Shown here one piece after another: positions 21,898 through 48,479 of a stretch of DNA of 49,644 bases. The position numbers were made by a program, and so were the translations under genes. The stretch is from NCBI RefSeq assembly GCF_001050375.1, contig NZ_KQ130506.1:1-49644 (forward strand). The letters are read 5' to 3'. The first letter of the stretch is position 1; each line of letters starts with the position of its first letter. Under the pieces are notes generated by a model. It was not told where the DNA came from and ran no database searches. It saw nothing but the letters and a program-made list of their open reading frames with translations. The DNA is from Catenovulum maritimum. Lineage in GTDB: Bacteria; Pseudomonadota; Gammaproteobacteria; Enterobacterales; Alteromonadaceae.

Positions 21898-21943
21898 TAT
21901 ACCCAAGTGGCTTTAAGAATCTTGGGTATAAGACTTGGGTATA
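21898..21943 (-). promoter_or_regulatory. Intercistronic region with alternative hairpins
   Basis: On the transcript (minus strand) the 10-nt word TATACCCAAG occurs twice, three bases apart, and its complement CTTGGGTATA follows once after a 13-nt gap. Either copy could pair with the single partner, giving two mutually exclusive stems between the receptor gene and the PepSY gene. Possible roles are partial termination or protection of the receptor mRNA 3' end. Confidence 0.55.
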
Positions 21944-21951
21944 AATTTAAA

Positions 21952-24066: not shown

Positions 24067-24091
24067 TTTATTTCCTATGATTAATTGCAAG

Positions 24092-25814: not shown

Positions 25815-26855
25815 TTAGCTCTCCATTGATAAAGGAATCGATTGATAGCTTTGCCCTGAACGCAATAGTGCCCATGCCGTTCTGATCGTTTTATTTACTA
25901 ACGCAATACAAGCTCGCTTAACTCCAGCCCTTTTGACTAAATCAATTAGCCATTGTTGCTTTTGGCTTTTTGGCTTATCGGGAAGGCTAGTAATATAGGA
26001 TAATGCACCAAGGTAAAGCACGGAACGTAATTTCTTATCGCCTCCCTTTTTGTCAATTCCAACCATAATAGTTTTTCCTCCACTACTATGCTGCTTTGGT
26101 GTTGCTCCTATATACACTGATGCTTGTCTACCATTTTTAAATCCTTGTCCATTACCTAAACTACAAAATAAACCTGCGGCTCCAATTTCTGCGACGCCTT
26201 CAAGCTTCATCAATCGCCTACAAGGCTCAGATTGTGTGACTTGTCGCTGTAATAATTTATCTATCGTCTTGTATTGTTTCTCGGTTTCCAGCCACTGTAT
26301 TTGCAGTACGCCAAGTAATACTTTAACGATATTGGGTAATGTTTCATTGTCAGGAGAAATATATTCTTCCATACCTAAACGCAAAGACTTTTTACCTGTA
26401 TTTAGTTTCACACCGTATTCGTATAGTAAGGCATAGATATGATTACCTATTTGAGTTAACGATTTATCTAAAAAGCGTCTTGATGTTTGAAGCGATTGCA
26501 AGTTTTGTTGTTCAATCGTCATCACTTGGCAAAAAGTCATATTGGGTTGACGAACAGCGACAGCAATTCCGATAGTGTCATTGGCATCTGTTTTTTGTTT
26601 ACCAATAAATGGTTTTACTTTTTTGGGCGGCATACCTCGTACAATATGACCATATGCTTGCGAAAAACGCCCCCAATGATGAAAGCTACCACAGCCCTCC
26701 ATGGCAACGATGCATGGTTTACTATTGGCAATGATCTCTTTTGCCTTTTTAGGAGAAACCGCTTTGTTAAAGAAAATTTCACCTGTTGGGCTGACTTTAC
26801 TTATTTGAATAACACGCTTTGCAAGATCGAGTGAGATAACGTTATGATGATACAT
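25815..26855 (-). CDS. IS110/IS1111-family transposase
   Basis: Transposase of 346 residues, apparently intact. The N-terminal RuvC-like DEDD domain shows SLDLAKRV (first Asp), VAMEGCGSFHHW (Glu) and GKQKTDANDTIGIA (Asp pair). The C-terminal Tnp20 domain has LEGVAEIGAAGLFCSLG, ASVYIGATPKQHSSGGK with the candidate catalytic serine, and GDKKLRSVLYLGAL. AAAGGAG lies 8 nt before the ATG. IS110 enzymes insert DNA through an RNA-guided recombination that uses the DEDD aspartates and the serine. The gene sits between zapA and the AraC gene, inside the palindromic repeat. Confidence 0.95.
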   Translation of the reverse strand: MYHHNVISLDLAKRVIQISKVSPTGEIFFNKAVSPKKAKEIIANSKPCIVAMEGCGSFHHWGRFSQAYGHIVRGMPPKKVKPFIGKQKTDANDTIGIAVAVRQPNMTFCQVMTIEQQNLQSLQTSRRFLDKSLTQIGNHIYALLYEYGVKLNTGKKSLRLGMEEYISPDNETLPNIVKVLLGVLQIQWLETEKQYKTIDKLLQRQVTQSEPCRRLMKLEGVAEIGAAGLFCSLGNGQGFKNGRQASVYIGATPKQHSSGGKTIMVGIDKKGGDKKLRSVLYLGALSYITSLPDKPKSQKQQWLIDLVKRAGVKRACIALVNKTIRTAWALLRSGQSYQSIPLSMES

Positions 26856-27847: not shown

Positions 27848-28312
27848 CTACTTGCCAAGATTAAAGTCTAGGCGAACTTCTAATCCTGATTGTATAACGG
27901 CTTCACCATTCACTATTCTAGGTTTATAAATCCATTTACTCAATGCTTGTTGAGCTTGATGATCAAATACACCATCGGGCACAGAGTCTATTACTTTTAT
28001 ATTAATGGTTTTGCCTGTTGGGCTTATATCAAAGCTCATACTAACCCAACCTTCTATGCCACCTCTTGCTGCGCTTGCAGGGTATCTAGGCGCAAATCTA
28101 GCGATAGGAGTTGCATCCGTTGCTACTTTTCTTGCCTGTGACACATTTTTCATCTTAGCTTGCTGATTATTCGCAGATTGAACCTCTGCTGTTTGTGCAT
28201 CTGAAACTCTGATAGGGGAGTTTGAAGATGCAGTTGTTGTACACGCCGTCAGCCAAAAGGCTATTACAGTTAGAGTCGTTAAGGGAATTATTTTCATCAT
28301 CTGTCTATTCAT
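27848..28312 (-). CDS. Lipoprotein with TonB C-terminal domain
   Basis: A 154-residue protein. The N-terminus has a lipobox signal (TLTVIAFWLTACTTT), then a low-complexity linker (residues ~30-65), then a TonB_C domain: PIARFAPRYPASAARGGIEG, GWVSMSFDISPTGKTINIKV, and WIYKPRIVNGEAV. Normal TonB is anchored by an N-terminal helix in the inner membrane with a Pro-rich linker; here the anchor is a lipid and no Pro-rich region is seen. Thr after the cysteine predicts an outer-membrane site. It is divergent from the heme-receptor gene and shares its Fur-type operators. The start could be 28312 or one of the Met codons at 28300 and 28297. Confidence 0.8.
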   Translation of the reverse strand: MNRQMMKIIPLTTLTVIAFWLTACTTTASSNSPIRVSDAQTAEVQSANNQQAKMKNVSQARKVATDATPIARFAPRYPASAARGGIEGWVSMSFDISPTGKTINIKVIDSVPDGVFDHQAQQALSKWIYKPRIVNGEAVIQSGLEVRLDFNLGK

Positions 28313-28385
28313 TAGTGCAAATAAAACAAATGTAGCAAGAAAGACATAAACAAACCAGCTAACTTAAATACCGGGTAATAATATT

Positions 28386-28470
28386 GCAACTGATAAGTAT
28401 TATCATTTGTATCTAATGGGTTGTTTGTGTATTATAGTTGCAATTGAAAACTATTCTCATTTGTATTTAA
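28386..28470. promoter_or_regulatory. Tandem Fur-type operator of the heme cluster
   Basis: A 31-bp unit occurs twice as a direct repeat (28386-28416 and 28440-28470), identical at 26 of 31 positions. The first contains the perfect palindrome TGATAAGTATTATCA (28391-28405). The second has the degenerate TGAAAACTATTCTCA (28445-28459) and touches the hmuR start codon. Both resemble the core of the Fur box and probably repress the heme operon and the divergent lipoprotein gene in iron-rich conditions. Confidence 0.75.
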
Positions 28471-30600
28471 GTGAAATTTAAAAAATCCCTAATCTCAGCT
28501 TCTGTATTTTTTACCTGCACTAGCCTAGTTCAAGCTGCAGACACACTAAAAAGTCACCAAGAGTTGCGGAAAAACCAGCAGCATCACACAGAGACTATTG
28601 TTGTAACCGGCACTCGTACACCCAAATTACTTTCGAATTCACCCGTTAAAGTGGATGTAATTGACGCGATTCAAATGAAAGTGCTGACAAGCAGCACAGT
28701 TGCTAAAGCGCTTAACTTTATTCCTGGTGTTGTTGTTACTCGAAATGCGAAAGATGGATATAACATCCAGATGCAAGGGTTTGATGGCGACAATGTCTTG
28801 GTTTTAGTTGACGGCCAACCTCTTATTTCGCCAACTGGTTCCGCTGTCGATTTAGATCAAATCAGCGCGCATGATATCGAGCAAGTTGAGGTCATTAGAG
28901 GGGCAGCGTCGGTTATGTACGGCAGTGCTGCCATGGGCGGTGTGATAAATATTATTACCAAGCAAATGGACAGTGACAGTTTTGAACCTTATAGCAAGAT
29001 AGACTTAGAAGTCGGTCGTTATCTAGGAAACGAAATTGAAAAAAATAAACTGGCTAAACAAGTCAGGTTAACGACTAATTTTGAGCTGCATAACTGGATA
29101 AATAGAGCGAGTTTGCTCGTCAAAGAAACACCTGGGTTTGATCTTGAACCTGAAAATGTACAACAAAATGCCGGTCAATTAGATAAAACATTTTTTAATT
29201 TTGCTAGCAACGGCAAAATTTCAGGCATCAAAACCTCAGTTAAATATCAATTTTTTAGTGAAGAAAAGGCAAGAGCAACCGGTAGCGTACCTGGCTCTAG
29301 CCCAATACAATTACTTTATTACACCTCGGACGTTGACCAGCATCAAATCGATTTTTCTATGGGTCAGGATGTGTTCGATAAAACTAGTCACAGGATCGCA
29401 GATACAAGTTGGCAGTTAAATGCACGAATGATGCGCCACGATGAAATTAGCGGCTCGGCAACTAAACGAGACGCCAACATCGAGTTGTATGAATTAAATG
29501 CTCAGCATGTCTGGAAGTACTCTGATTTAGCCTTCTCCTTTACTAACCCGCTCGCTTTGTTTAGCCAAGCTACTAATAAAGACATTAACTTAAACGGCGA
29601 AGCCGAGATAGTCGCAGGTGGCGTATTGCACCAAGATAAATTATCTCAAGTTAATTTAGTTTCAGGTAAGTATGAAATTGAGCCTTCTTCTCGTGAAAGT
29701 ATCGAAGGCTTCCTTCAAGCTAACTGGATTAATGATGAATATCAGGCATTAGTTGGTATTCGTACTCAGCTTGATTCTGAATTTGGTTTTCATAGCGCCG
29801 TTAGAGCAAGTGGTATGTGGGATTGGTCGCAAGACGATAATAAGCTGCAATGGCGTTTTGGTTTAGGCCAAGGCTATAGAGTGCCAAATTTAAAAGAACT
29901 GAAATATGAATTTGATCACTCGGCATTAGGCTACATGGTACTGGGAAATCCAGATTTAAAACCAGAAAATTCTTGGTCAGCCAACTCTACTTGGGATTTT
30001 CAGACCGAAGTTAACTCTGGTCTGTTAGCCGGTGGTCAGCTTAAATCTGAGTTGAACCTGCATTATTCAAAAGCAAATAACTTTATCGAATCTTTTAACG
30101 ACCCAATCCTTTCTAGCGATCAAGGCTTAGACATTTCGGTTTATAACAATATTGACCGCGCAACTATGCAAGGGGTCGATACTAGCTTTGAACTGAGATT
30201 TGACACTTGGTACAGCCAAGTTAGCTACAGCTATTTAGATGCTAGAGACGGCAATCACACACGTTTGAAGCATCGACCATATCATCAAGTTAAGGCTAAT
30301 TTGGGCTATAGCCAAATTAACTGGGACTTAGACGCCGTTTTATATCTGGTTTATCAAAGCAACGAACACTTTGACAAGACTATTTTTATAAATGGTCAAG
30401 AAACCGCAGTTAATCAATTAGATAACGAGTGGTTAACGGTCGACTTTAAGCTTAATCAACAAATTAACAAATTCATTGGCTGGCGATTTGGCGTTGAAAA
30501 TATTTTTGATACGCACCAAAGCCCAGTTGAACCAACACTTTTCGATGCCAGAGATAATACCAGTCGGTATGTTTACTTCGGCATGGATTTTACTTTTTAA
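28471..30600 (+). CDS. hmuR: TonB-dependent heme receptor, HmuR-like
   Basis: Outer-membrane receptor of 709 residues with a GTG start. A signal peptide (ISASVFFTCTSLVQAAD) is followed by the TonB box ETIVVTGTR at about residue 41, a plug domain (VLVLVDGQPLI, IEQVEVIRGAASVMYGSAAM), and a barrel ending in Phe (FGMDFTF). The YRVPNLKEL and GNPDLKPENSW motifs correspond to the FRAP and NPNL signatures of heme receptors and are close to HmuR of Porphyromonas and Bacteroides. An HmuY-family gene follows after 46 bp and HmuS-like chelatases further on, which supports heme as the ligand. Tandem Fur-type sites lie directly upstream. Confidence 0.9.
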   Translation: MKFKKSLISASVFFTCTSLVQAADTLKSHQELRKNQQHHTETIVVTGTRTPKLLSNSPVKVDVIDAIQMKVLTSSTVAKALNFIPGVVVTRNAKDGYNIQMQGFDGDNVLVLVDGQPLISPTGSAVDLDQISAHDIEQVEVIRGAASVMYGSAAMGGVINIITKQMDSDSFEPYSKIDLEVGRYLGNEIEKNKLAKQVRLTTNFELHNWINRASLLVKETPGFDLEPENVQQNAGQLDKTFFNFASNGKISGIKTSVKYQFFSEEKARATGSVPGSSPIQLLYYTSDVDQHQIDFSMGQDVFDKTSHRIADTSWQLNARMMRHDEISGSATKRDANIELYELNAQHVWKYSDLAFSFTNPLALFSQATNKDINLNGEAEIVAGGVLHQDKLSQVNLVSGKYEIEPSSRESIEGFLQANWINDEYQALVGIRTQLDSEFGFHSAVRASGMWDWSQDDNKLQWRFGLGQGYRVPNLKELKYEFDHSALGYMVLGNPDLKPENSWSANSTWDFQTEVNSGLLAGGQLKSELNLHYSKANNFIESFNDPILSSDQGLDISVYNNIDRATMQGVDTSFELRFDTWYSQVSYSYLDARDGNHTRLKHRPYHQVKANLGYSQINWDLDAVLYLVYQSNEHFDKTIFINGQETAVNQLDNEWLTVDFKLNQQINKFIGWRFGVENIFDTHQSPVEPTLFDARDNTSRYVYFGMDFTF

Positions 30601-30646
30601 CCCATTTAATAACCAAATTTAATTACCCATCGTTTTTGGAGAGAAT

Positions 30647-31765
30647 ATGACTTTTAACACTAATTTATCACTTTCTGTATTAGCAGCTTTAGCCTTAACA
30701 GCTTGTGGTGGTAGCTCAGATTCAGAAAACGTAACTGATAATAATGATAAACCAGCCGTTGATACTATCTACGGTCCATTATCAACAGGTGCTTTTCCGA
30801 ACCGTGTTTTTGCGTACTTCGATTTAGAAACTATGACTCAAATAACTTTAACGGATGAAGAAGCAGCAACCAATACGGACTGGGACATAGCTTTTAAAGG
30901 TACAGATGTTTATCTGAACTACAACAATACTCAGGCACCGGTTAGCTTATATTTCACCGGCAATAATGCTGACTTTTTTGATGCTGCTGGAACTCGAATT
31001 GACTCAGCGTTTGTTAATGCCACTGCTGAATCTGAGTTAGCCGATTTTGACGCCGTTTCAACTGCGTCAATCCCAACAGCAGCAGATGCTTTTATTGTTG
31101 ATAGCAACGAAAAAATTATTAATGGTAGCGGCGGTTTTTATACTTATAACACGACGAGCCATCAAGTATCGGCTAACCAAGACAATTTCTTTATTGTAAA
31201 TTCAGATGACACTATCACTAAATTTAGAGTGACAGATATAACAACATCTGGATTCGTTATAACAAACTTAACGCTTAAATTTGCCAATCAAGGTTTAAGT
31301 GCCGATGCGTTTGATACCACAGAAACTGAAGTTATGCTGGATGCGACAGATGCATGTAATAATTACTCAGGTGTTTATATTGATTTTGATGACTCTAGTT
31401 ACCTCGTAAGCTCAACAGATGCTTGGGATATTAGCCTGCCATGTGGCACAGCGGGTGCTGACTTTGAAATAGATATCGCCGATGATGCAACTGCAAGACG
31501 CGATTTTGACAACCTTTTTACCGGCATACCTCGTGATTCGATTGTGCATTACAACTTCCAGCCGAATGAAGTCACTGAGTTCGCATTTAAAGCTTTACCT
31601 TGGTACACCTATGCACCTGAAGGTGGTATTGCGCACGGTATTTACTCTCAATTTGGGGTTTATTTAATTAAAACCTCAAGTGCTACGTACAAGTTCCAAA
31701 TTACAAGTTACTACGACAGCCAAGGTGGTTCTGGCAATTACTCATTCCGAGCTGCTGCTCTTTAA
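30647..31765 (+). CDS. hmuY: HmuY-family heme-binding lipoprotein
   Basis: Lipoprotein of 372 residues; the lipobox LALTACGGSS puts the acylated cysteine near residue 20. Two HmuY-type units can be seen: one around TDWDIAFKGTDVYLN (residues ~80-95) and one around DAWDISLPCGTAG (residues ~260-272), ending with YYDSQGGSGNYSFR, the usual C-terminal signature of the family. HmuY proteins bind heme at the cell surface and hand it to HmuR. GGAGA lies 4 nt before the ATG. Which residues coordinate heme here cannot be read from sequence alone. Confidence 0.85.
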   Translation: MTFNTNLSLSVLAALALTACGGSSDSENVTDNNDKPAVDTIYGPLSTGAFPNRVFAYFDLETMTQITLTDEEAATNTDWDIAFKGTDVYLNYNNTQAPVSLYFTGNNADFFDAAGTRIDSAFVNATAESELADFDAVSTASIPTAADAFIVDSNEKIINGSGGFYTYNTTSHQVSANQDNFFIVNSDDTITKFRVTDITTSGFVITNLTLKFANQGLSADAFDTTETEVMLDATDACNNYSGVYIDFDDSSYLVSSTDAWDISLPCGTAGADFEIDIADDATARRDFDNLFTGIPRDSIVHYNFQPNEVTEFAFKALPWYTYAPEGGIAHGIYSQFGVYLIKTSSATYKFQITSYYDSQGGSGNYSFRAAAL

Positions 31766-31770
31766 CATTT

Positions 31771-31812
31771 AATGGGTAATGGTAGTTATCATTACCCATT
31801 TCTTATTCTTGT
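31771..31812 (+). terminator. Terminator-like hairpin after hmuY
   Basis: AATGGGTAATG and CATTACCCATT form a perfect 11-bp stem around an 8-nt loop, followed by TCTTATTCTTG. Because the channel gene starts 19 bp later without an obvious new promoter, it probably trims expression so that receptor and lipoprotein exceed the inner-membrane and chelatase parts. Confidence 0.75.
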
Positions 31813-31830
31813 TTATGTCGGTAGGATTTT

Positions 31831-32457
31831 ATGATTTCTCAAATCGAACAACTCATGTATCAGTTGTCAGACTTTTTTATGGCACCTGTGTTACTGCTTA
31901 TCTCCTTGTTGTTTATTTACGCTTTATTTGCAACGGGCTGCTACATAATGCAGAGTATACAGCGCAAACAAAACCGCGCTAATTTCTTTCAATTTACCCA
32001 TACCAAACTGGGTGAAAAAACGGATTTAAATCTTGCAGGGTATCCATTAGCACAATTAGCGAATGCGCATAATGCTGTGACTAAAGATCAACTTGATGTG
32101 AGCGCTTTAGAGGAGCTAGAAGGCGTTAGAAATGTCAGTCGCCTTGCGCCTATGTTAGGTTTAATTGCGACTATGGTTCCTATGGGGCCTGCGCTAAAAA
32201 GTTTAGCTGACGGCAATATTCAAGGGATCAGTGAAAACCTAATTGTCGCTTTCTCAGCGGTTGTTTTTGGGTTGGTTATTGCCTCAATCACCTTTTGGAT
32301 TGCGAGCGTTAAGAAGCGTTGGTTAGCGCAAGAATTAGTTGCATTAAGCCCGCTATTAGCTGAAAACCAAAATGACAAGGTTAAAGCGAACTGTCAAGAA
32401 AATAATGTGAAAGGGACATCAGCAACTGAACTTGGAGCACAAAATGCGGCTGCTTGA
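31831..32457 (+). CDS. MotA/TolQ/ExbB proton-channel family protein (HmuU-like)
   Basis: Inner-membrane protein of 208 residues with an N-terminal helix (APVLLLISLLFIYALFATGC), a cytoplasmic loop (~45-110) and a paired-helix channel core (RLAPMLGLIATMVPMGPAL, then ENLIVAFSAVVFGLVIASITFWI). The GLIATMVPMGPAL segment is the ExbB/MotA/TolQ signature. A member of this family together with a DUF2149 protein is a standard part of Bacteroidetes hmu loci. TAGGA precedes the ATG by 5 nt, and the 3' end overlaps the DUF2149 gene by 14 bp. Confidence 0.88.
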   Translation: MISQIEQLMYQLSDFFMAPVLLLISLLFIYALFATGCYIMQSIQRKQNRANFFQFTHTKLGEKTDLNLAGYPLAQLANAHNAVTKDQLDVSALEELEGVRNVSRLAPMLGLIATMVPMGPALKSLADGNIQGISENLIVAFSAVVFGLVIASITFWIASVKKRWLAQELVALSPLLAENQNDKVKANCQENNVKGTSATELGAQNAAA

Positions 32458-32749
32458 TGAAGATGAAGGTATTAACCCTGCTTTATCCGTCGTTAACTTG
32501 GTCGATGTTTTTTTAGTTCTTGTGGCAGCTTTGCTAATTGCGGTAGCGCAAAACCCACTTAATCCTTTCATGGCGGAAGATGTGACTGTGATTAAGAATG
32601 AAGGCAAAGACAATATGGAGATAATTGTCAAAAAAGGGAACAAAATAGAAAGCTTTAAAAGCCAAGGTGAGACAGGTAGTGGTTCTGGTAAAAAGGCCGG
32701 TACAGCTTATGAAATGGCAGACGGCTCTATTATTTACGTTAAAGAGTAA
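32444..32749 (+). CDS. DUF2149 protein, ExbD-like partner
   Basis: A 101-residue protein with one transmembrane helix (LVDVFLVLVAALLIAVAQ) preceded by LLDEDEGINPALSVVN and followed by a short periplasmic domain rich in Lys and Gly. The single Asp at the start of the helix recalls ExbD and TolR, whose membrane Asp carries protons. ATG 32444 has GGAG 6 nt ahead; a TTG four codons earlier is less likely. The overlap with the channel gene suggests tight coupling. In hmu loci this protein is found beside the chelatase HmuS. Confidence 0.85.
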   Translation: MRLLDEDEGINPALSVVNLVDVFLVLVAALLIAVAQNPLNPFMAEDVTVIKNEGKDNMEIIVKKGNKIESFKSQGETGSGSGKKAGTAYEMADGSIIYVKE

Positions 32750-32784
32750 AGTCATTTACTACTGGAAAACAATCCCCTTTGCAC

Positions 32785-32826
32785 AAGGTCGAATTATCTC
32801 GACCTTCCCATTTTAGGTCGAGATAA
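32785..32826 (+). promoter_or_regulatory. Mutually exclusive hairpins before the first chelatase gene
   Basis: AAGGTCGA (32785-32792) can pair with TCGACCTT (32799-32806). Alternatively TTATCTCGACC (32794-32804) can form a perfect 11-bp stem with GGTCGAGATAA (32816-32826). The two stems share the TCGACC strand, so only one can form. The arrangement in the 100-bp gap before hmuS recalls an attenuator, but no leader peptide or long T-run is visible. Confidence 0.5.
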
Positions 32827-32849
32827 CCGACTTTACTGAGCAAATTTAC

Positions 32850-35800
32850 ATGAAAAAGATAACCAAACTAATCCCAATGTTAGCGATTGCAATGGTTAGT
32901 TTACTCGCTATATTTCAATCGCTGGCGAATACGCCAACTTCAAGCGTTGAGCCGAAAATTCATCAAGCATCCAATTCGATAAAACCCCAGATTTTGTTAC
33001 TCGGATCCTCGCATGCGGCTAAAGCAAAGAGTGACTTATTAGAGAAGCTGGCTGCAGGCAAAAATTTTGAATTCGTGATTACCACAACGACAAAATTAGC
33101 CGACGACGAACTTAAAGCCATTTGGAAAAATGCCAGCTTAGTCATGATGGATGGTATTAACCCAGCCTTGTCTAAGTTTATGTTTGCTAAGTATCAGGCT
33201 TGGTTAACGCAAATGCCTAATGTGCCCGTTATTTCACTTGGTGATTTAGACAACCAAAGCATGAACCAAGGTTTAGCGCCGCAAGATCATCAAACGATTG
33301 GTGCTTATTTTAAAAATGCAGGGCGAAACAATTATGCCAGCATGATGGATTACATTGCTTATCGGTTTATTGAGTTTAAGCCCAGTGTTATGGTAGCTAA
33401 TCCGAATATAGTGCCAAATATAGGTGTTTATCACCCCGACTATAAAACGCTAGTGACCAAGGATGAAGCTGATTTTTATACTTGGCTAAACCAACGCCAG
33501 CTAGTAAAGCTTGCTGAAAATGAAACCGCCAAGCAACCTACAGTAGCGATTGCTATGCATCGTAGTGTTGTGGATTATGAGCAGCAGCAAATTGTCGATG
33601 CCATGATCCAAGGATTAGAAGCTAAAGGCGCAAAAGCATTTGGTTTTTTCTTTGAAGGGGAAGATGAAAATTTAACCTACCCTGAATTATTACTAGACGA
33701 TAATAATCAAGCTAGAGTTGATTTACTGATTAATTACCGTGCTTTGCACTATGTTGAAAAGCGTCGTCAGGAATTTACTCAAATTGGTGTTCCTGTAATA
33801 CACGCTATGAATTATACCGAGGGCAGTGAGGCAGATTTTAAAGCGGATAATGCGGGTATTTCACCTTCATTAACGCCTTTCTTTTTAGTGATGCCAGAAG
33901 ACACAGGCAGCACAGATCCAACCATAATCGCGGCTAGCCCAAAAGAAGGCGAAAACGCGGGAAACAAAGTGGTTATTCCTTATCAAATGAATGCCCTAGT
34001 TGAGCGCGCCTATAATCATGCACGCTTAGCCCATATTGATAATAGTGATAAAAAGATTGCGACTTTTATCTGGAATTACCCTCCAGGCGAGAAAAATATC
34101 GGCGCGGCTTTTTTAGATGTGCCTAGCTCTATTGAGCAAATTGCCAAAGCTATGATTCAGCAAGGTTATCAAATTAAATTTCCGCATCAAGGCATGGGTG
34201 ATAAAGGTCAATTAAGAGATTGGTTGATCGAATCAGCTGGTTTATTACTACGTCCTTATTATCGTGATGAAGATGCAGAAGGATTAATTGATAAAGGGTT
34301 AGCAGATTACTTGCCGCTCAGTACCTATTTAGCTTGGTTTAATCAATTACCGCAAGATGTCAGAACCCCTATTGTCGAACGTTGGGGAGCGCCGGAAAAA
34401 AGCGCTATGTTACGCCAAGCCACGATAAACGGCGAAAAAGTCGATGCTTACGTTATTCCGCGTATGGATTTAGGTAACATGATAATCATGCCGCAAGGTT
34501 TACGTGGCGATAACGCAAAAGAAAGCGCAGCTTTGTATCACGACACTAAAGAGCCCGCAAATCATTCGTATTTAGCTATCTACTTATATGCCCGCCAGCA
34601 GTTTGGTGCTAATGCTTTTGTCCATTTAGGCACTCATGGTTCACAGGAGTGGTTATCGGGTAAAGAGCGAGGTTTATCAGTTTATGATGCACCTAATCTA
34701 GTGATTGGCAACTTACCGGTTTTCTACCCATATATAATTGATAATGTGGGCGAAGCTATGCAAGCTAAGCGCCGCGGCCGTGCAACTATGATTAGCCATT
34801 TAACGCCTGGGTTTGCCAAGGCTGGTTTATATGCCGAAGTAGCGGTATTAAATGAAAAATTAGCCAACTACATGATGTTAGAGGCGGGTCAAACCAAAGC
34901 CAATACCGAAGCCGAAATTATCAAGCTGGCGATTGAGCTCGATATGCTTAAAGATTTATCTGCTAATTCAGGCGAATCTATCGACGAAGCAGAGCTTAAA
35001 GCTAACTTCGCGAATTATGTTGCAGCCATGCAAGATCATTTAAATAGTCTGGCACAGATGAGCCAACCGTTAGGTGTTCATACCTTTGGTGTGCTCCCTA
35101 AAGATGCCCATTTATATACCACTATGTTGCAAATGCTAGGTGACGAATATCTTGCTCGTGCAGCGGTTTATGAAAAGGAGAATGGCCTTGTTTATCAAAT
35201 GTCTGCCGAGCAGCAAAGTGACGCGGATAAAGAGATGGCAAGATTAGGGGTTGCTGAATTAGCTAGTTTAGAAGGTTTCCAATTACTAAAAGCATTTTTA
35301 TCTGCTGAAAAGTCAGGCCAAAAACTAGCCGATTTAACCCCTGAGTTAGAGGCAGACCTCAAACAAGCAAAAGTGTATTGGGATAATTTTCAAGCCATCA
35401 GTGAAATAGAAAGTCTATTATCAGCGCTTGATGGTCAGTATATTCCAGTTAGCCATGGCGGCGACCCTATTCGCAACCCGGATGCCGCACCAACTGGGCG
35501 TAATCTAATTGGTTTTAACCCTGCTAAAGTGCCGAGCAAAGAAGCTTACGCTGCTGGTGTTAGCTTAATGAATCAAACCATAGACGCCTATGTCGCCAAG
35601 CATGGTCGCTATCCAGAAAAGTTAGCTTTCTCATTATGGTCACTCGAAACCATGCGTCATCAAGGCGCGTTAGAGGCGCAAATCCTTCATGCACTTGGTT
35701 TAAAGCCTGTATGGAACCGCCAAGGCAATGTTAGCGGCACTGAGGTTATCGAATATAAAGATTTAGGACGCCCGCGTATCGACGTAGTTATTTCTGCAAC

Positions 35801-37049
35801 TGGCTTATATCGAGATGCTTTTCCTAATGTGATGCTATGGTTAGCTGAAGCGATAGATACAGTAGCTAAGATGAAAGAAGAAAATAACTTTGTTTATCGT
35901 AATGCAAGCCAATTAAAACAAAGCTTAATCGCAGAAGGTAAAACGGAAGAAGATGCTGATTACTTGTCGTCAGTTCGTATTTTCTCGAACGAAACGGGTA
36001 ATTATGGTACTGGTTTAGCTGGCGCCAGCTTAGCGTCAGGTACATGGGAAGATGATAGTAAACTTGCCGATTTATACACACGCCGTATGGGATTTGCCTT
36101 TGGTAAAGATGAAACTCGCTGGAGTGAAAATATGGGCGAAACCGATCTTTATAGCAAGGTATTGTCGGGTACTGAAGGTGTTATCTTTTCACGCTCAACT
36201 AATCTATACGCCATGATGACGAATGATGACCCATTCCAGTATTTTGGTGGTATTGGTTTAGCTGTGCGTAATTTAGATGGCAAAACACCTGAAATGTATG
36301 TGTCTAACTTGCGTAAAAAAGATCAAGTTAAAACCCAGACCCTAGCCGAATTTGTCAATCAAGAATTACGTTCACGCTACTTCCACCCGCGTTGGATTAA
36401 AGCCATGCAAGATTCTGGATACGCAGGCGCGACTGCTATTTTAGACAGGGTTAATAACCTTTGGGGTTGGGAAGTGATGACTCCAGAAGCGATCCGTGAT
36501 GACCAATGGCAAGAATTTTTTGAAATTTATGTGGATGATAAATATCAAATGAATATGCGTGAGTTTTTCCAAAATAATAACGCTGAAAGCTTAGCGCAAA
36601 TCATCGAGCGAATGTTAGAAGCCGAACGTAAAGACTATTGGCAAACAGATGATGAGACAGTTAAAAAGCTAGTTGAAACTTATGCTGAGTTAGCCGTGCA
36701 GTTTGATGTGGCGACTAACAACGATAAATTCAATGAATATATGGATCAAAAACTAACTGGATTTGGCCAACAACCTTTGTCAGAGCAATTGGCAGCACTG
36801 GATTTAGCGGCTGCTGTACCTGCGGCTAACAGCCAAGCTGAATCAGAGCAAGTACAAGGCCAAAAGCTAGAAAAGCAAAATCAGAAAAATATTGAGATTG
36901 ATCATTCATTCTTATATCAGTCGTTATTTGTCATGCTACTCATCATGCTTATTGGCGGTTACTACCAAGTTCGTAGTGCTAAAGCGGGTAAGCATCACAG
37001 CCATAAAGTAATTCAGTTTGCCCAACACAAGCAAAACAAAGCCGCTTAA
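32850..37049 (+). CDS. hmuS: Periplasmic CobN-like chelatase, HmuS-like, copy 1
   Basis: A 1,399-residue protein with a signal peptide (IPMLAIAMVSLLAIFQSLA) and a C-terminal helix (QSLFVMLLIMLIGGYYQV, ~1354-1375) followed by a short basic tail, so the bulk should lie in the periplasm. CobN/Mg-chelatase H-type motifs are clear: NYPPGEKNIGAAFLDV near 405, VHLGTHGSQEWLSGKERG near 590, GGDPIRNPDAAPTGRN near 868, RPRIDVVISATGLYRDAFPN near 980. Cytosolic CobN inserts cobalt with CobS and CobT ATPases; none is seen here. HmuS proteins of this class have been described as heme dechelatases that remove iron and leave the porphyrin intact. A juxtamembrane VQGQKLEKQ is shared with copy 2. Confidence 0.88.
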   Translation: MKKITKLIPMLAIAMVSLLAIFQSLANTPTSSVEPKIHQASNSIKPQILLLGSSHAAKAKSDLLEKLAAGKNFEFVITTTTKLADDELKAIWKNASLVMMDGINPALSKFMFAKYQAWLTQMPNVPVISLGDLDNQSMNQGLAPQDHQTIGAYFKNAGRNNYASMMDYIAYRFIEFKPSVMVANPNIVPNIGVYHPDYKTLVTKDEADFYTWLNQRQLVKLAENETAKQPTVAIAMHRSVVDYEQQQIVDAMIQGLEAKGAKAFGFFFEGEDENLTYPELLLDDNNQARVDLLINYRALHYVEKRRQEFTQIGVPVIHAMNYTEGSEADFKADNAGISPSLTPFFLVMPEDTGSTDPTIIAASPKEGENAGNKVVIPYQMNALVERAYNHARLAHIDNSDKKIATFIWNYPPGEKNIGAAFLDVPSSIEQIAKAMIQQGYQIKFPHQGMGDKGQLRDWLIESAGLLLRPYYRDEDAEGLIDKGLADYLPLSTYLAWFNQLPQDVRTPIVERWGAPEKSAMLRQATINGEKVDAYVIPRMDLGNMIIMPQGLRGDNAKESAALYHDTKEPANHSYLAIYLYARQQFGANAFVHLGTHGSQEWLSGKERGLSVYDAPNLVIGNLPVFYPYIIDNVGEAMQAKRRGRATMISHLTPGFAKAGLYAEVAVLNEKLANYMMLEAGQTKANTEAEIIKLAIELDMLKDLSANSGESIDEAELKANFANYVAAMQDHLNSLAQMSQPLGVHTFGVLPKDAHLYTTMLQMLGDEYLARAAVYEKENGLVYQMSAEQQSDADKEMARLGVAELASLEGFQLLKAFLSAEKSGQKLADLTPELEADLKQAKVYWDNFQAISEIESLLSALDGQYIPVSHGGDPIRNPDAAPTGRNLIGFNPAKVPSKEAYAAGVSLMNQTIDAYVAKHGRYPEKLAFSLWSLETMRHQGALEAQILHALGLKPVWNRQGNVSGTEVIEYKDLGRPRIDVVISATGLYRDAFPNVMLWLAEAIDTVAKMKEENNFVYRNASQLKQSLIAEGKTEEDADYLSSVRIFSNETGNYGTGLAGASLASGTWEDDSKLADLYTRRMGFAFGKDETRWSENMGETDLYSKVLSGTEGVIFSRSTNLYAMMTNDDPFQYFGGIGLAVRNLDGKTPEMYVSNLRKKDQVKTQTLAEFVNQELRSRYFHPRWIKAMQDSGYAGATAILDRVNNLWGWEVMTPEAIRDDQWQEFFEIYVDDKYQMNMREFFQNNNAESLAQIIERMLEAERKDYWQTDDETVKKLVETYAELAVQFDVATNNDKFNEYMDQKLTGFGQQPLSEQLAALDLAAAVPAANSQAESEQVQGQKLEKQNQKNIEIDHSFLYQSLFVMLLIMLIGGYYQVRSAKAGKHHSHKVIQFAQHKQNKAA

Positions 37050-37055
37050 CTTAGC

Positions 37056-37086
37056 AACTCAGTCCAATAATCTTTTGGGCTGAGTT
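37056..37086 (+). terminator. Hairpin between the two chelatase genes
   Basis: AACTCAGTCCAA and TTGGGCTGAGTT pair over 12 positions (one G-T) around a 7-nt loop, just after the copy 1 stop; TACTTGG follows, without a T-run. It may be a weak terminator or an mRNA-stabilising stem. Confidence 0.5.
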
Positions 37087-37190
37087 TACTTGGTTGCCAG
37101 AGCTTTGATTCAGACTCTACTCTAACTCGATACTCTACCCCAATTTAATTGACCTTATATCTATAGACACCTAATCCATAAGAGATAAAT

Positions 37191-40100
37191 ATGAAAATAA
37201 TCACCCGATTTAGTTTAATGCTGGTGGCATTATGCTGCTGGTCATTAACCGTAAAGGCGAATGAAGCCGCTGATATCTTATTTGTGAGTGCAGCACATTC
37301 TAATAAAGCCAAGGTTGGATTATTGCATAAAGCTGCATTAAATAACCCAAGCGCAGTATGGAATATTAAGCAGAAAAACGCCAAAGACCTGACTGATATG
37401 GCAGCAGCACAAAGCCTATTTAGCCAATATGATTTAGTCGTGCTAGATGCTGTGTCGCCTCGAGAAGCGAGTAAAACATACCAAGCTTTTATCACCAGCA
37501 TTGCCAACACAGAAACCAAATTTATCGCATTTAATTGGCTTGATAATCAAGCTGCGCAAAAGGGAATAAGCGAAGCACAGCAGCAAACCTTACAAAGCTA
37601 TTGGAAAAATGCAGGCCTAGCTAATTTAAATAACATGCTGAGTTATATTGCCTATAATTTATTAGGGCATCGTAATCCGAGCTCGGCCACTGTTCCTGAG
37701 CCTATTATATTCCCAACTCAGGGTATTTATCACCCTAACCAAGCTAAGCTGATTAGTGAAAGTTTAGCTGAATATCAACAATGGTCTGCGCCAAAAGCAA
37801 ATCAAGCCAAGATTGCGCTCCTGATGCAACGAGCCTTGATTGAAACCGAACAAACTCAGTTAATAGACACCACTATTGCCCTATTGGAAGCTAAAGGTGC
37901 TTATGTTGTACCTTTCTTTTTTGAGCTAAGCCCTGTTAGTGGCGACTATAGTCATTTACTCCAAAGCGAAGTAAAGCAAGGTGGCACCCTAGTTGGTAAG
38001 CAAACAGAAGTTGATCTCATTATTAACTTTAGGAATATTCATTGGGCGAACAAACGTAAGCTCGAATTTGAGCAATTTGGCGTACCTGTTATGCAGGCAA
38101 TGACATATTATTCCGGCGACCAACAAGCTTGGGAAGCTGATATGCAAGGCGTTGCGCCAGGTATGATGGCATTTACACTCGTTTTACCCGAAACCGCAGG
38201 TGTGGTTGATCCTATGGTTGTAGCGGCAACGGATCGAAAAACACAAACCACAGAAATTATTAGCTATCAATTAGAGCACTTGGTCAACAAGGCGGTTAAT
38301 GTCGCTAATTTGAAATATAAAGCGAACCAAGATAAAAAGCTGACTGTATTTGTTTGGGGCGATAAAGATGTTGGTGCTTCATTTATGAATATTCCAGCGA
38401 GCATTGAAGCTATCAGTCAAAGACTCGCAGCCGAAGGTTATCAAACTGGTGAACGCGATGCCCAATACATCACAGCAAATATCAAAAAAATTCTGGACCC
38501 ATTTTATCGTGATTTTGAGTTAACTGAGTTGCTTGAACAAGACCTAGCGGAACTCATGCCAATAGATGAGTATTTAGCATGGTTTAACAGCTTACCTGCT
38601 GAATTAACCAAGGAAATCCGTGATCACTGGGGAGAGCCCAAAGAAAACTTTATGGCGGTGGAAAAAAACGGTAAAGACTATTTCATTTTGCCAAGAATTA
38701 GAAACGGCAATATGTTGGTTATGCGTCAGCCTTCGCGCTCAGATAACAAAAACGACGAAAACCAAATTTATCATCAGGGACTCGTTCCTATGAATCATTT
38801 TTACCTCGCAGCCTATTTTTATGCCAGACAATATTGGCAGTCTGATGCCATAGTGCATCTAGGTACGCATGGCTCGCAAGAATATTTAGGCGGTAAAGAG
38901 CGCGGTCTTTCAATTTATGATCAAGGTAATCTTGCCGTTTGGGATACGCCTGTCGTCTACCCTTTCATTGTGGATGATGTCGGTGAAGCTATGCAAACAA
39001 AGCGACGCGGTAGAGCAACGGTTATCTCTCACATGACGCCTCCCTTTGCCGCCGCAGGTTTACACGGTGACATGAGTGATTTACATGAACTGATGCATCA
39101 ATACAAAGCGTTAGACCAAGGCGGTGTTAAGCAGAAAACAGCTAAACTAATTGCAGAAAAGTGTATTGAAATTAATATATGTAACGACATAGGTTGGAAT
39201 CAAACTCAAATCGAAACCGCTTTATCTTCGACTACTGAGTGGAGTGACTTTTTTAGTCTCTTACATAGCCACATGGAATCTTTGGCAACTGCAAACCAGC
39301 CACTGGGTTTACATACCTTTGGCGCATTGGCTGAGCAAGACTTAGTTATTTCTACCCTAGTGCAGATGTTAGGCCGTGACTTCACCGGTTTAGCAACCGA
39401 GTTTGAACATCAAAATTATTTGAATCAAGATGAAACCAGACATGCTGAGCATGGCGATGAAGAACATAGCCATAGCTATCACAACACAAGTCATAAACAT
39501 GATGAAGACTCAGATCATGAGCACTCAGATCATGAACACGCAACCCAAGCGCATCAAGGTGATGAATTAAAAAGCTTATCTGTCAAAAAATTAGCGGGAT
39601 ATTTAACCGCATTAAATTACATTATTAAAGACGGAGATAACAAAGCAAACAGACCGATAGCGTTTGATGATTTAGATGAAGCCTTACAAACTCAAATAAA
39701 TCGCGGCATTAAGCTATATCAAAACATGGCTGGGATCCGTGAACTCGATAGCATGGTTGATTTTTTACAAGCTAAATATATTCCAGTTAAAACCGGTGGC
39801 GACCCGATCCGTCATCCTGAATCATTGGCGACCGGTTATAACCTATATGGTTTTGACCCATCAAGAGTGCCAACGCCTGCGGCTTATCAACAAGGGCAAG
39901 AGTTAGTTGAAGAAATGATAGCTAACTATCAGAAAAAGCATAATACCTATCCAGATAAAATGGCATTTTCGCTTTGGTCAATTGAAACTATGCGCCATTA
40001 CGGTGTCCTTGAATCGCAAATCTTATACGCCATGGGGGTTAAACCTAAATGGACACCAGATGGTAGAGTGATAGGCACAGAAGTTATCCCTTATAGCGAA

Positions 40101-41417
40101 TTAAAACGCCCAAGAGTTGATGTGGTTATGTCTGCAACTGGGTTATACCGAGATGCGTTTCCAAATGTGATGCAACTTTTAGCCAAAGCGGTTAAACAAG
40201 TCGCTGAGTTAAAACAAGAGAGCAATTCTATCTGGGATAATTTTGTTCAAATCAACAGCGAAAAAGTGAAGCAGAGCTTAATTGAACAGGGCGTTGCAGC
40301 CGATGAAGCTGAATACTTATCAAGTATTCGTATGTTTTCAAATCAATCAGGTGATTATGGTTCAGGTGTAGATGACTCAACTTGGGCGAGTGATACTTGG
40401 GAGAGCGATAAAAAAATCTCCGATAATTACTTAGGCAAAATGGGCTATTTCTTTGGCCCAGATAGCTCTCGTTGGGGAGAAAAAGCCGTCAATGCGCAAG
40501 GGGAAGACGTACAGCTATACGCTAAGCAATTGTCTGGGACAGACCTTGCCATGTTTGCCCGATCTTCTAACTTGTTTGGCATGTTAAGTACAGATGACCC
40601 GTTTGAATACTTTGGTGCATTAAGCCTAGCGGTACGCAATATAGACGGTAAAAGTCCAGATATGGTTGTGGCTAACTTACGTGATGCAAATAATGCAAAA
40701 GCAGAAGATGCCGCTTTGTTTATGGCCAAAGAATTGAGAACACGGAATTTCCATCCTCGTTGGATTGCTGAAATGCAAAAAGAAGGCTATTCAGGCGCAG
40801 TATCTATGGCGTCTAGAATCGATAACTTTTTTGGTTGGCAGGTGGTTGATCCTAATTTAGTCAGAAATGATCAGTGGGATGAATTTATGGATGTTTACCT
40901 AAAAGATAAATTGAACCTAGGGTTAGATGAATGGTTTGAAGAAGTTAATCCAACAGCACTCGCTAGAATGATGGAGCGCATGTTAGAAGCCGAACGAAAA
41001 GATTACTGGCAAGCAGATCCTGAGCGTTTGAAGCAACTGGTTGAAAAATATGTCGACTTTGTCAATCAATATGACTTGATAGTGTTAAATGACGCACTTA
41101 GAGAGCATGTTGATGAATTAGCCAAGGGATTTGGTTCACAAGCTTTACAAGCCGCTAAAACGGCAGAGGATATGGCAGCTCAAGCTATGGCTCAAAAAGC
41201 GAAAAATCAGACTCAATTGGCTCAAGAACCTGCGTTAAATGATAGTGCCAAACAGCAAGTTGAAGGACAAAAGCTGGAAAAACAAACAGAGCAAAGCCAG
41301 ACTGAAGATAACGATTTTATTTGGCAATGCTTAGCGATTATTGCTTTGATTATGTTACTTGGTGCGATTTACCAAACTAGGCAATCTAAGCAAGCAAACA
41401 AGAAGTTTGCAAACTGA
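37191..41417 (+). CDS. hmuS: Periplasmic CobN-like chelatase, HmuS-like, copy 2 with His-rich insertion
   Basis: A 1,408-residue paralogue of the preceding protein with the same build: signal peptide (FSLMLVALCCWSLTVKANE), CobN core and C-terminal helix (CLAIIALIMLLGAIYQTR, ~1377-1397). Core motifs are VHLGTHGSQEYLGGKERG near 555, GGDPIRHPESLATGYN near 868 and RPRVDVVMSATGLYRDAFPN. Two differences stand out. The NYPPGE motif of copy 1 is replaced by VWGDKDVGASFMN. Residues ~750-793 form a His/Asp/Glu-rich insertion (HEHSDHEHATQAH) that looks able to bind metal, absent from copy 1. VEGQKLEKQ precedes the anchor. The two proteins may act as a hetero-pair or on different substrates. Confidence 0.87.
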   Translation: MKIITRFSLMLVALCCWSLTVKANEAADILFVSAAHSNKAKVGLLHKAALNNPSAVWNIKQKNAKDLTDMAAAQSLFSQYDLVVLDAVSPREASKTYQAFITSIANTETKFIAFNWLDNQAAQKGISEAQQQTLQSYWKNAGLANLNNMLSYIAYNLLGHRNPSSATVPEPIIFPTQGIYHPNQAKLISESLAEYQQWSAPKANQAKIALLMQRALIETEQTQLIDTTIALLEAKGAYVVPFFFELSPVSGDYSHLLQSEVKQGGTLVGKQTEVDLIINFRNIHWANKRKLEFEQFGVPVMQAMTYYSGDQQAWEADMQGVAPGMMAFTLVLPETAGVVDPMVVAATDRKTQTTEIISYQLEHLVNKAVNVANLKYKANQDKKLTVFVWGDKDVGASFMNIPASIEAISQRLAAEGYQTGERDAQYITANIKKILDPFYRDFELTELLEQDLAELMPIDEYLAWFNSLPAELTKEIRDHWGEPKENFMAVEKNGKDYFILPRIRNGNMLVMRQPSRSDNKNDENQIYHQGLVPMNHFYLAAYFYARQYWQSDAIVHLGTHGSQEYLGGKERGLSIYDQGNLAVWDTPVVYPFIVDDVGEAMQTKRRGRATVISHMTPPFAAAGLHGDMSDLHELMHQYKALDQGGVKQKTAKLIAEKCIEINICNDIGWNQTQIETALSSTTEWSDFFSLLHSHMESLATANQPLGLHTFGALAEQDLVISTLVQMLGRDFTGLATEFEHQNYLNQDETRHAEHGDEEHSHSYHNTSHKHDEDSDHEHSDHEHATQAHQGDELKSLSVKKLAGYLTALNYIIKDGDNKANRPIAFDDLDEALQTQINRGIKLYQNMAGIRELDSMVDFLQAKYIPVKTGGDPIRHPESLATGYNLYGFDPSRVPTPAAYQQGQELVEEMIANYQKKHNTYPDKMAFSLWSIETMRHYGVLESQILYAMGVKPKWTPDGRVIGTEVIPYSELKRPRVDVVMSATGLYRDAFPNVMQLLAKAVKQVAELKQESNSIWDNFVQINSEKVKQSLIEQGVAADEAEYLSSIRMFSNQSGDYGSGVDDSTWASDTWESDKKISDNYLGKMGYFFGPDSSRWGEKAVNAQGEDVQLYAKQLSGTDLAMFARSSNLFGMLSTDDPFEYFGALSLAVRNIDGKSPDMVVANLRDANNAKAEDAALFMAKELRTRNFHPRWIAEMQKEGYSGAVSMASRIDNFFGWQVVDPNLVRNDQWDEFMDVYLKDKLNLGLDEWFEEVNPTALARMMERMLEAERKDYWQADPERLKQLVEKYVDFVNQYDLIVLNDALREHVDELAKGFGSQALQAAKTAEDMAAQAMAQKAKNQTQLAQEPALNDSAKQQVEGQKLEKQTEQSQTEDNDFIWQCLAIIALIMLLGAIYQTRQSKQANKKFAN

Positions 41418-47516: not shown

Positions 47517-48479
47517 TTAGTACGCCAGATCCAGCGGGCTGCGAGCATAGCCAAATTTAGAACCAATAACATGCGTGTAAATTTCAGTTGTTTTTACATC
47601 ATTATGACCAAGCAGTTCCTGAACTGTCCTAATGTCAGCGCCAGAACGCAGTAACTCAGTTGCAAATGAATGCCTGAAAGTATGAGCTGTCACGCGTTTA
47701 TCTATAGCTGATTTTTTGACTGCCTGTCTGAGTTGTTTTCGAAATGCGGTTTCGTGAATATGATGACGACAAATATAGCCATCTTGTGGATGCATGCAGC
47801 GAACACTCGATGGGAAGATGTATTGCCAAGCGGTATCTTTGGCTGCAGACTTGTACTTATTGATCAAACTGATTGGCATAGAGGCAAGACCAAAGCCGTC
47901 TTTTAGATCTTGTTGATGTAACTGCTTAGCGTTTTCGATTTGGGCTTGTAACGGGACAATTAAATTTTCAGGCAACATTGTACAACGATCTTTATTTCCC
48001 TTACCACGGAAGATAAAAAGACTTTTATTTTGAAAATCAATGTCTTTAACCCTTAGTCTTAGTGCTTCACTTATTCTTAAACCTGCACCAAATAGTAGAC
48101 TGGCTATGATTTGATATTTGCCTGACAGGTTAGTAATGATTGACATCGCTTCTTGGGTACTCAGTACCGTTGGGATGGTTTTTTGCCGTTTAGTAAACGA
48201 ATATGCAAGCTCAGTAATTTCTTTTTTAATGACATATCTATACATGAATATTATTGCACACAGCGCTTGATTTTGAGTCGCTGCACTGACTTGCCGATTG
48301 ACAGCAAGATGATTTAAAAAGCGCTCAATTTCTGAATTCCCCATATCCTTTGGGTGTTTATAATCGCTAAAGCGAATAAAGGTACGAACCCAATGTAGAT
48401 AAGATTTTTCAGTTGTATAACTGTAATGCTTGGTTCTGAGCTCAGTTCTAATTGACTCGATAAATTGAGATTTAGCCAT
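47517..48479 (-). CDS. intI: Integron integrase IntI
   Basis: Tyrosine recombinase of 320 residues that inserts and excises gene cassettes at attI and attC. The catalytic residues are in GLRISEALRLRV (Arg), HTFRHSFATELL (His-x-x-Arg), LLGHNDV and EIYTHV (Tyr). The extra IntI domain that separates integron integrases from XerCD is present: DLKDGFGLASMPISLINKY, then WQYIFPSS and RHHIHETAF. The start is ATG 48479 with TTGGAGGA 8 nt upstream, and the promoter carries a LexA box. Cassettes lie on the opposite side, to the right, in the standard divergent layout. Confidence 0.95.
   Translation of the reverse strand: MAKSQFIESIRTELRTKHYSYTTEKSYLHWVRTFIRFSDYKHPKDMGNSEIERFLNHLAVNRQVSAATQNQALCAIIFMYRYVIKKEITELAYSFTKRQKTIPTVLSTQEAMSIITNLSGKYQIIASLLFGAGLRISEALRLRVKDIDFQNKSLFIFRGKGNKDRCTMLPENLIVPLQAQIENAKQLHQQDLKDGFGLASMPISLINKYKSAAKDTAWQYIFPSSVRCMHPQDGYICRHHIHETAFRKQLRQAVKKSAIDKRVTAHTFRHSFATELLRSGADIRTVQELLGHNDVKTTEIYTHVIGSKFGYARSPLDLAY

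Follow-up and report, generated by a model that had tools for sequence, protein, structure and literature searches.

An hmu-related operon in Catenovulum maritimum with two CobN/HmuS-like proteins downstream of Fur-like boxes

Can a gammaproteobacterium strip iron from heme in its periplasm, and what would drive the enzymes that do so? These questions are raised by a stretch of 49,644 nucleotides from Catenovulum maritimum (contig NZ_KQ130506.1, positions 1 to 49,644), hereafter the window, in which one operon encodes two large proteins, termed S1 and S2, that resemble both the cobaltochelatase subunit CobN and the Bacteroidetes protein HmuS. Removal of iron from intact heme was shown with purified HmuS in 2025, at 1-2 turnovers in vitro (PMC12583661). 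We find that the window operon is real and recurrent, and that it is related to hmu yet distinct. From sequence comparison, we give somewhat better than an even chance to the reading that it is a Fur-repressed heme-iron scavenging operon, with periplasmic iron removal by S1 and S2 and an ExbB-like/DUF2149 motor pair that serves the chelatases.

A recurrent six-gene operon

Six intact genes occupy positions 28471-41417 on the + strand, in the order TonB-dependent receptor (28471..30600; Pfam Plug 5e-25, barrel 1e-21; predicted GTG start), HmuY-family lipoprotein (30647..31765; PF14064, 6e-9), ExbB-like (HmuU-like) proton-channel subunit (31831..32457; PF01618, 4e-8), DUF2149 (HmuV-like) protein whose single transmembrane helix may be ExbD-like (32444..32749; PF09919, 9e-29), S1 (32850..37049; 1399 residues; PF02514, 1019 bits) and S2 (37191..41417; 1408 residues; PF02514, 959 bits). 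The operon thus combines hmu-type genes for HmuY, the receptor, an ExbB-like protein (U) and DUF2149 (V). The lipoprotein has a lipobox Cys20 that is conserved in 27/27 HmuY homologues and probably contains two HmuY-like repeats; its homologues at loci L188 and L152 have two PF14064 stretches each. A match between a two-domain HmuY and two chelatases was considered and dropped, because operons with S2 alone carry an equally long HmuY.

The same six genes in identical order are found at L188, in a genome of another genus (G445), which excludes an assembly accident as the source of the arrangement. S1 is 84.2% and S2 60.0% identical between the two loci. A first-pass annotation of this DNA had described the six-gene set, its single strand and its order, all of which are borne out by Pfam matches, open reading frame coordinates and L188. 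It had also equated the locus with hmu of Bacteroidetes, and this does not hold. There is no space for an HmuT gene between the six genes of the window, whereas the HmuS loci inspected encode a protein of 198-237 residues there, and neither S1 nor S2 has His1209 of HmuS, its His254-Gly-Arg motif or its Met-rich insertion.

Two chelatase lineages beside HmuS

S1 and S2 are 40.9% identical to each other and match PF02514 over their whole length. We collected 136 chelatase-like proteins and built a midpoint-rooted FastTree phylogeny of the 125 that remained after removal of identical sequences, with HmuS, CobN and BchH represented, here and in the counts below, by 5, 6 and 6 sequences. S1 falls in a clade of 40 linked to hemoglobin receptors (support 0.998), and S2 in an HmuY-linked clade of 45 (0.714) with a 41-member core (1.0). 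Both clades lie inside a 102-member branch (0.966) that adjoins HmuS (5 members; joint branch 0.874), and CobW-linked CobN and BchH fall apart from it; of the 19 other proteins in the tree, two (L185 and L209) group with CobN. The phylogenetic check proposed by the first-pass annotation therefore separates S1 and S2 from cobalt-inserting CobN. Recent tandem duplication was rejected on the identity of 40.9% and the two separate clades.

HmuS (PDB 9d26) is also the best solved relative of both proteins: S1 scores 409.6 bits against it, ahead of CobN 7c6o (371.4) and ChlH (344.7), and S2 scores 420.1 bits, ahead of ChlH (336.2) and CobN (326.5 and 308.3). The S2 body, modelled over 961 residues with a mean pLDDT of 74.7, matches HmuS first (TM by query 0.76-0.77), by a small margin over CobN (0.73) and ChlH (0.69-0.73). 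The best NCBIfam model for S1 and S2 is that of CobN, with 1220.8 and 1198.3 bits, both under its cut-off of 1248. Each protein has a hydrophobic segment at both its N and C terminus, a topology consistent with the periplasmic location that had been assigned to them. With PF02514, terminal hydrophobic segments and a clade separate from CobN and ChlH/BchH, they have the traits of the BtuS type, the third CobN type originally proposed by Rodionov 2003 (as cited in PMC6460266).

Other members of the family show further variation. HmuS-type genes with an LSLDH motif occur in the same bacterial family (L205-L207), and in Catenovulum agarivorans YM01 (L133 and L065) the S2 gene is split, one open frame having 507 residues and the other 850. 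A further CobN-like group of 1481-1600 residues with an HLGRHS/HVGRHS motif (L062, L066, L067 and L204) is accompanied by ExbB-like genes, and its copy in G445 has an in-frame TGA. On a Cupriavidus campinensis plasmid (L186), ~1.1 kb separates two CobN-family genes; the tree places one in the CobN clade and the other with S1 and S2, and no DUF2149 was found at this locus.

A second type of active site

His596 of S1 (34635..34637, +) and His560 of S2 (38868..38870, +), both within the motif HLGTHG, are the counterparts of HmuS His538. The corresponding HmuS motif is HFG(T/A)HG, and the position is His in 125/125 aligned proteins and hence not diagnostic. The second HmuS motif, LSLDHxxEFMGG, is altered in both proteins. 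In alignments to PDB 9d26 and in column counts, HmuS Asp1208-His1209 corresponds to Asp1126-Asp1127 in S1 (36225..36230, +) and Asp1135-Asp1136 in S2 (40593..40598, +), and position 1209 is His in 5/5 HmuS proteins and Asp in 40/40 S1 and 45/45 S2 proteins. An Asp-Asp pair is present here in 5/6 of the CobN proteins compared and Asn-Asp in the remaining one. At the position of HmuS Glu1212, 40/40 S1 proteins have Gln; the 45 S2 proteins divide into 35 with Glu and 10 with Gln. These catalytic motifs are intact in all four S1 and S2 proteins of the window and L188.

S1 and S2 have no HGR motif at the position of His254-Gly-Arg in heme site 1 of HmuS, the nearest conserved His being two residues further. 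The region of Met79-Gly80, which belongs to that site too, is poorly conserved and, compared by eye, reads Ile in S1 and Val in S2. The Met-rich insertion of domain IV is missing: S1 has no insertion at this site and S2 has a His-rich one (residues 745-795; 39423..39575, +), recognised by its His count and predicted disorder (pLDDT < 50 at model residues 376-426). Residues 725-862 of S2 contain 13 His and the L188 counterpart contains 23; for clade S1 the median over this stretch is 1. The loop is only partly a general feature of S2, with 2 to 23 His (median 7) across the 45 members.

Promoter elements and substrate

Two putative Fur boxes lie at the operon promoter, and Fur-like boxes are enriched across related loci. 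Box 1 (28387..28409) and box 2 (28441..28463) match CAAATGATAATNATTATCATTTG at 20/22 and 18/22 positions, with 0/500 shuffles as good in either case; this extended 23-mer was composed after seeing window box 1 and loci L055, L057 and L058, which makes the shuffle test partly circular. Against the E. coli Fur 19-mer consensus, box 1 scores 14/19 (equalled by 13/500 shuffles) and box 2 a weak 12/19 (257/500). Box 2 thus depends on the family-specific 23-mer. Upstream of related operons the 23-mer occurs at 16/22 or better in 27/38 S1 and 28/44 S2 loci (25/36 and 27/43 without L055, L057 and L058); the corresponding counts are 3/38 and 6/44 for other intergenic regions within those loci, and none for shuffled sequence. 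The E. coli 19-mer is found upstream in 20/38 S1 and 22/44 S2 loci, compared with 2/38 and 5/44 in shuffled sequence and 8/175 and 8/164 in control gaps. The tandem Fur-type sites reported in the first-pass annotation are therefore upheld, the enrichment at related loci being seen with either string.

Control of the S1 and S2 loci by Zur or NikR was rejected. Zur-like boxes reach threshold in 0/38 S1 and 0/44 S2 loci, and NikR-like sites in 0/38 S1 and 1/44 S2 loci, compared with 3/44 in shuffled S2 sequence. We found no cobalamin riboswitch in the window or in 11 related loci; of two CobN control loci, one had two. A Zur-like site (18/22) does lie upstream of the HmuS-type gene at L205, one of 5 HmuS loci, and 1/5 control regions have one likewise.

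Receptors of related loci point to heme. Those neighbouring S1-clade genes match the hemoglobin/heme model TIGR01786 in 32/32 cases scanned (E < 1e-93) and TIGR01785 in 31/32. This count covers 32 of the 39 S1 loci, with 30 receptors divergent and 2 on the same strand. It leaves out L152 and L188, which are HmuY-linked, and also L138, L153, L156, L169 and L181, where the choice of receptor was not clean. At S2-clade loci with no called HmuY gene, 5/6 scanned receptors exceed both heme cut-offs, as does that of L070, with L111, L116, L124 and L125 outside the scan. Heme-iron removal is probably the best reading for S1 and S2, given their kinship, HmuY, the Fur-like boxes and the receptors of related loci, and the heme context that had first been proposed for the operon gains support from HmuY and these receptors.

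The lack of cobalamin-type partners is likewise sustained, with no CobT in the assembly, no CobW in the scanned neighbours and no riboswitch. The first-pass annotation had also recorded no CobS/CobT, heme oxygenase or iron permease. The whole 4.5-Mb assembly contains no CobT (PF06213), no heme oxygenase of PF01126 and no HemS (PF05171), CobS and other heme-degrading families not having been searched; the claim stands for CobT, PF01126 and the permease FeoB, and does not extend to CobS or other permeases, which were not searched.

Two plasmid loci have a different genetic context. In Runella slithyformis (L184), ExbB-DUF2149-CobN-like genes and a TonB receptor lie within a hyp hydrogenase-maturation cluster, pointing to nickel. 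In Azospirillum brasilense (L187), CobN-like-ExbB-DUF2149 genes lie near nikR, and the CobN-like protein has a DHP motif, which puts a His where HmuS has His1209.

An ExbB-like/DUF2149 pair accompanies the chelatases

New relative to the first-pass annotation is the observation that the ExbB/DUF2149 pair accompanies the chelatases. Both genes are present in 39/39 S1, 40/44 S2 and 5/5 HmuS loci, and in 0/6 CobN and 0/6 BchH loci. DUF2149 is found in 14/18 other loci; four HLGRHS-type proteins have ExbB-like genes and no DUF2149 by tblastn. Across 369 genomes of the class, DUF2149 is over its cut-off in 20, and in 20/20 of these PF02514 is found on that contig too, no more than about 4 kb away by the listed coordinates. 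In two distinct loci of 138 (L111, and L070, which by its length is the same contig as L121 and is counted once), a full TonB-ExbB-ExbD set is followed directly by ExbB-DUF2149-S2. The host genome itself has three ordinary ExbD genes.

The DUF2149 protein is assigned by Pfam only to PF09919, without PF02472 (ExbD/TolR). Its Asp21, conserved in 94/95 homologues, aligns with E. coli ExbD Asp25 in an hhalign match of 19 columns (E 0.0044, probability 7.9%). In Mantel comparisons of 75 loci, motor distances track those of the chelatase (partial r 0.80 for ExbB and 0.68 for DUF2149) rather than those of the receptor (0.13 and 0.03), and within clades ExbB also tracks the chelatase more than the receptor (S1, 0.56 versus 0.31; S2, 0.71 versus 0.55). 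The nearest receptor was used, which in a few loci is a downstream one, and species kinship is uncorrected in these values. An apparent fused ExbB-DUF2149 protein in L140 was rejected as an out-of-frame open-frame artefact.

We tentatively propose that the ExbB-like and DUF2149 proteins form a motor, powered by the proton-motive force and dedicated to periplasmic class I chelatases, that takes the part played in the cytosol by the CobS/CobT or ChlI/ChlD ATPases. Such a motor might drive a family of metal-stripping enzymes acting on different metals: iron from heme under Fur here, and in related systems perhaps nickel or zinc. In the window operon it would drive both chelatases. This proposal fits the linkage patterns and the absence of CobT. 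If the pair does power the chelatase, it would be a factor that the in vitro HmuS reaction lacks.

Origin and rarity of the S1-S2 pair

The genes of the operon have different relatives. The window S1 groups with those of L188 and Marinifaba L152 (1.0), and this group lies within the S1 proteins from loci with hemoglobin receptors; S1-clade proteins usually come with their own hemoglobin-type receptor and motor. The Marinifaba operon has the order receptor-HmuY-ExbB-DUF2149-S1, with no S2 alongside. The window S2 groups with Colwellia-type S2 (0.99), the receptor with L188, L194 and L195 (1.0), the ExbB-like protein with L188 (0.908) and HmuY with L105, L130 and L147 (0.965). Because S1, S2, receptor, ExbB and HmuY group with different loci, we read the operon as a mosaic in which an S1 gene was placed into an S2-type operon, with exchange or loss afterwards, and the pair as old.

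Of 395 family genomes examined, 73 have a PF02514 match, and adjacent S1-S2 pairs were found in at least 2 of these 73; at most two best candidates were scored per genome in these large searches, which makes pair counts lower bounds. There is none among the 78 named loci, where double hits are split genes (L124, L133 and L177) or copies ~6 kb apart (L175). The named scan used two peptide patterns, with 277/296 stretches confirmed and the best 80 kept, so that S1 and S2 are over-represented in it; L188 was counted once under S1 and once under S2. At L175, in a Sulfurovum metagenome-assembled genome, a single ExbB-DUF2149 pair was called, preceding the first of the two CobN-like genes. The survey for paired copies that had been suggested thus agrees with the claim that such a pair is unusual. 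Two CobN-like proteins per genome were already known from BtuS1/BtuS2 of B. fragilis (PMC6460266).

Proposed mechanism and alternatives

The sequences themselves show gene content and order, recurrence, phylogeny, residues, receptor families, Fur-like boxes and the linkage of the motor. From them we infer a scheme that covers Fur binding, heme as substrate, iron removal, the target of the motor and any division of labour. Under iron shortage the receptor, aided by the HmuY-like lipoprotein, would move heme into the periplasm, where S1 and S2, tied to the inner membrane at both ends, would bind it and extract iron as HmuS does. Catalysis would use one conserved His and an Asp-Asp pair instead of the two His of HmuS, and the disordered His-rich loop of S2 may capture substrate or freed iron. 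The ExbB-like and DUF2149 proteins would form a small proton channel, which in this scheme most likely serves both chelatases rather than TonB. On this view an S2-type operon would have acquired S1, a second and ancient type of chelatase, so that the two enzymes would now share one motor.

Several observations count against this scheme. S1 and S2 have Asp in place of the second catalytic His of HmuS, as cobalt-inserting CobN does (6/6), so the chemistry may differ. The window receptor scores below cut-off with both the heme model TIGR01785 (155.7 bits; cut-off 316.85) and the B12 model TIGR01779 (131.8; 599.7), and all 34 receptors of its type give similar, weak matches to both models (E < 1e-30); because of this, the heme reading of the window rests on HmuY, the Fur-like boxes and kinship. 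The 23-mer is not enriched at HmuS loci (0/5) or more distant loci (4/15 versus 4/18). No FeoB that could take up freed iron is over cut-off in the whole assembly (best 58.7 of 315.7 bits), other iron permeases not having been searched. A B. fragilis double mutant of two CobN-like genes still released protoporphyrin (PMC6460266). Within clades, DUF2149 tracks the receptor more than the chelatase (S1, 0.48 versus 0.38; S2, 0.48 versus 0.37). Four S2 loci (L108, L109, L110 and L115) have no linked motor genes; their genomes (4/4) have DUF2149 elsewhere, beside an ExbB-like gene, with no chelatase called within the 16-20 kb stretches around these pairs (for G1119, the identical stretch of G540 was used). 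G1121 has an additional ExbB-DUF2149 pair beside an HmuS-like gene.

The within-clade signal of DUF2149 is shared with a rival account, possible if short of probable, in which the ExbB-like/DUF2149 pair is the TonB motor of the receptor and the chelatases need none. HmuU and HmuV of B. thetaiotaomicron were proposed to act in this way (PMC10100974), the DUF2149 helix resembles ExbD, albeit at the low hhalign probability given above, and purified HmuS is active without a motor, though for 1-2 turnovers only (PMC12583661). This account has to accommodate the three ordinary ExbD genes already in the genome, the two lineages that retain a complete TonB-ExbB-ExbD set adjoining ExbB-DUF2149-chelatase, and the 20/20 linkage of DUF2149 to PF02514 in the class. 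It also has to accommodate matches to both PF09919 and PF02514 in Methanosarcina acetivorans, an archaeon that is not known to have an outer membrane. With respect to the pair itself, we put only a little below even the chance that S1 and S2 have no joint function, S1 being a passenger of recombination between S1-type and S2-type systems and one copy being redundant and on its way to loss. Adjacent pairs are rare, the Marinifaba operon has S1 alone and many others S2 alone, and the receptor and S2 trees conflict; two genera have nonetheless retained the pair, at the identities given above, and none of the four proteins has lost its catalytic motifs.

We consider it unlikely that the target of S1 and S2 is a different tetrapyrrole or metal (a corrinoid, or zinc- or magnesium-porphyrin), or that this applies to one of them, with heme as the target of the other. 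The CobN-like Asp-Asp pair, the His-rich loop present in S2 and absent from S1, and the ambiguous window receptor would suit such substrates, as would the nickel genes of the Runella system and the nikR gene near that of Azospirillum. A Zur site is described for P. aeruginosa PA1922-PA1925 (PMC8456098), and a cobalamin riboswitch for some Bacteroides hmu-like operons (PMC10100974). The Fur-like boxes, the complete lack of threshold Zur-like boxes at S1 and S2 loci, the absence of a cobalamin riboswitch and the hemoglobin-type receptors across the wider S1 and S2 clades argue the other way. That S1 and S2 are ordinary cobalt-inserting CobN subunits for vitamin B12 is very improbable and already contradicted: CobN is their top NCBIfam model, yet both scores are under its cut-off, both proteins have hydrophobic segments at both ends and form clades apart from CobN, and there is no CobT in the genome, no CobW in scanned neighbours and no riboswitch. 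We accordingly rejected this identity on tree, topology, CobT and riboswitch.

Neighbouring features

Two intergenic hairpins lie within the operon. Between the HmuY and ExbB-like genes (31771-31800) there is a terminator-like hairpin with a T tail, which could reduce expression of downstream genes, and between the DUF2149 and S1 genes (32750-32849) a strong hairpin (-29.8 kcal/mol, z -5.7). The corresponding gap of L188 (272 bases) has none as strong in the first 140 bases folded (z -1.1). A divergent gene at 27848-28312 (-) encodes a small lipoprotein-like protein with a TonB C-terminal domain. The operon is flanked by genes for an IS110-type transposase (25815-26855, -) and a phage-type integrase (47517-48494, -), and 19883-24090 (-) encodes another TonB-dependent receptor, near a DUF4198 protein.

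Comparison with known systems

The vitamin B12 cobaltochelatase CobN with CobS/CobT has the same fold, PF02514 and, in 5/6 CobN, the Asp-Asp pair. It is ATPase-driven (PMC7689651) and lies beside cobalamin genes, with riboswitches in one of two loci. The CobN-ExbB-ExbD-TonB genes of Geobacter lovleyi plasmid pSZ77 resemble the window in having a CobN-like gene without CobS/CobT adjoining TonB-system genes; they include a single chelatase and were read as siderophore, B12 or corrinoid transport (PMC3403914). P. aeruginosa PA1922-PA1925 is similar by description only, with a TonB receptor, a CobN-like protein, an ExbD-like protein and an unknown protein in one metal-controlled cluster, and differs in having a Zur site and being assigned to zinc (PMC8456098). 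BtuS1 and BtuS2 of B. fragilis are two genes in separate operons, one of them hmu-like (PMC6460266), whereas the window pair is adjacent and has one shared motor pair.

The closest system is hmuYRSTUV of Bacteroidetes (B. thetaiotaomicron; PDB 9d26 and 9p4s), which likewise has HmuY, TonB-dependent receptor, ExbB-like and DUF2149 genes. The complete six-gene operon is described as limited to Bacteroidetes, with HmuS-, HmuU- and HmuV-like proteins counted in Proteobacteria too (PMC10100974), and among the published matches listed we found no proteobacterial operon with a paired HmuS-type gene. HmuS is the best match of S1 and S2 in sequence and fold; like them it is large, resembles class I chelatases, has a membrane anchor at either end and carries the His538 motif. 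The window proteins differ in their identity of about 26% to Bacteroides HmuS (L178), in the change of His1209 to Asp, and in having neither His254-Gly-Arg nor the Met-rich insertion; the operon differs in its lack of HmuT, its order R-Y-U-V-S1-S2, its two chelatases and its gammaproteobacterial host. This proteobacterial lineage differs from HmuS in its active-site pair, and the relatives of the operon are a natural experiment on the role of ExbB/DUF2149. Its main interest lies in this second type of active site, in the paired chelatases and, above all, in the motor question.

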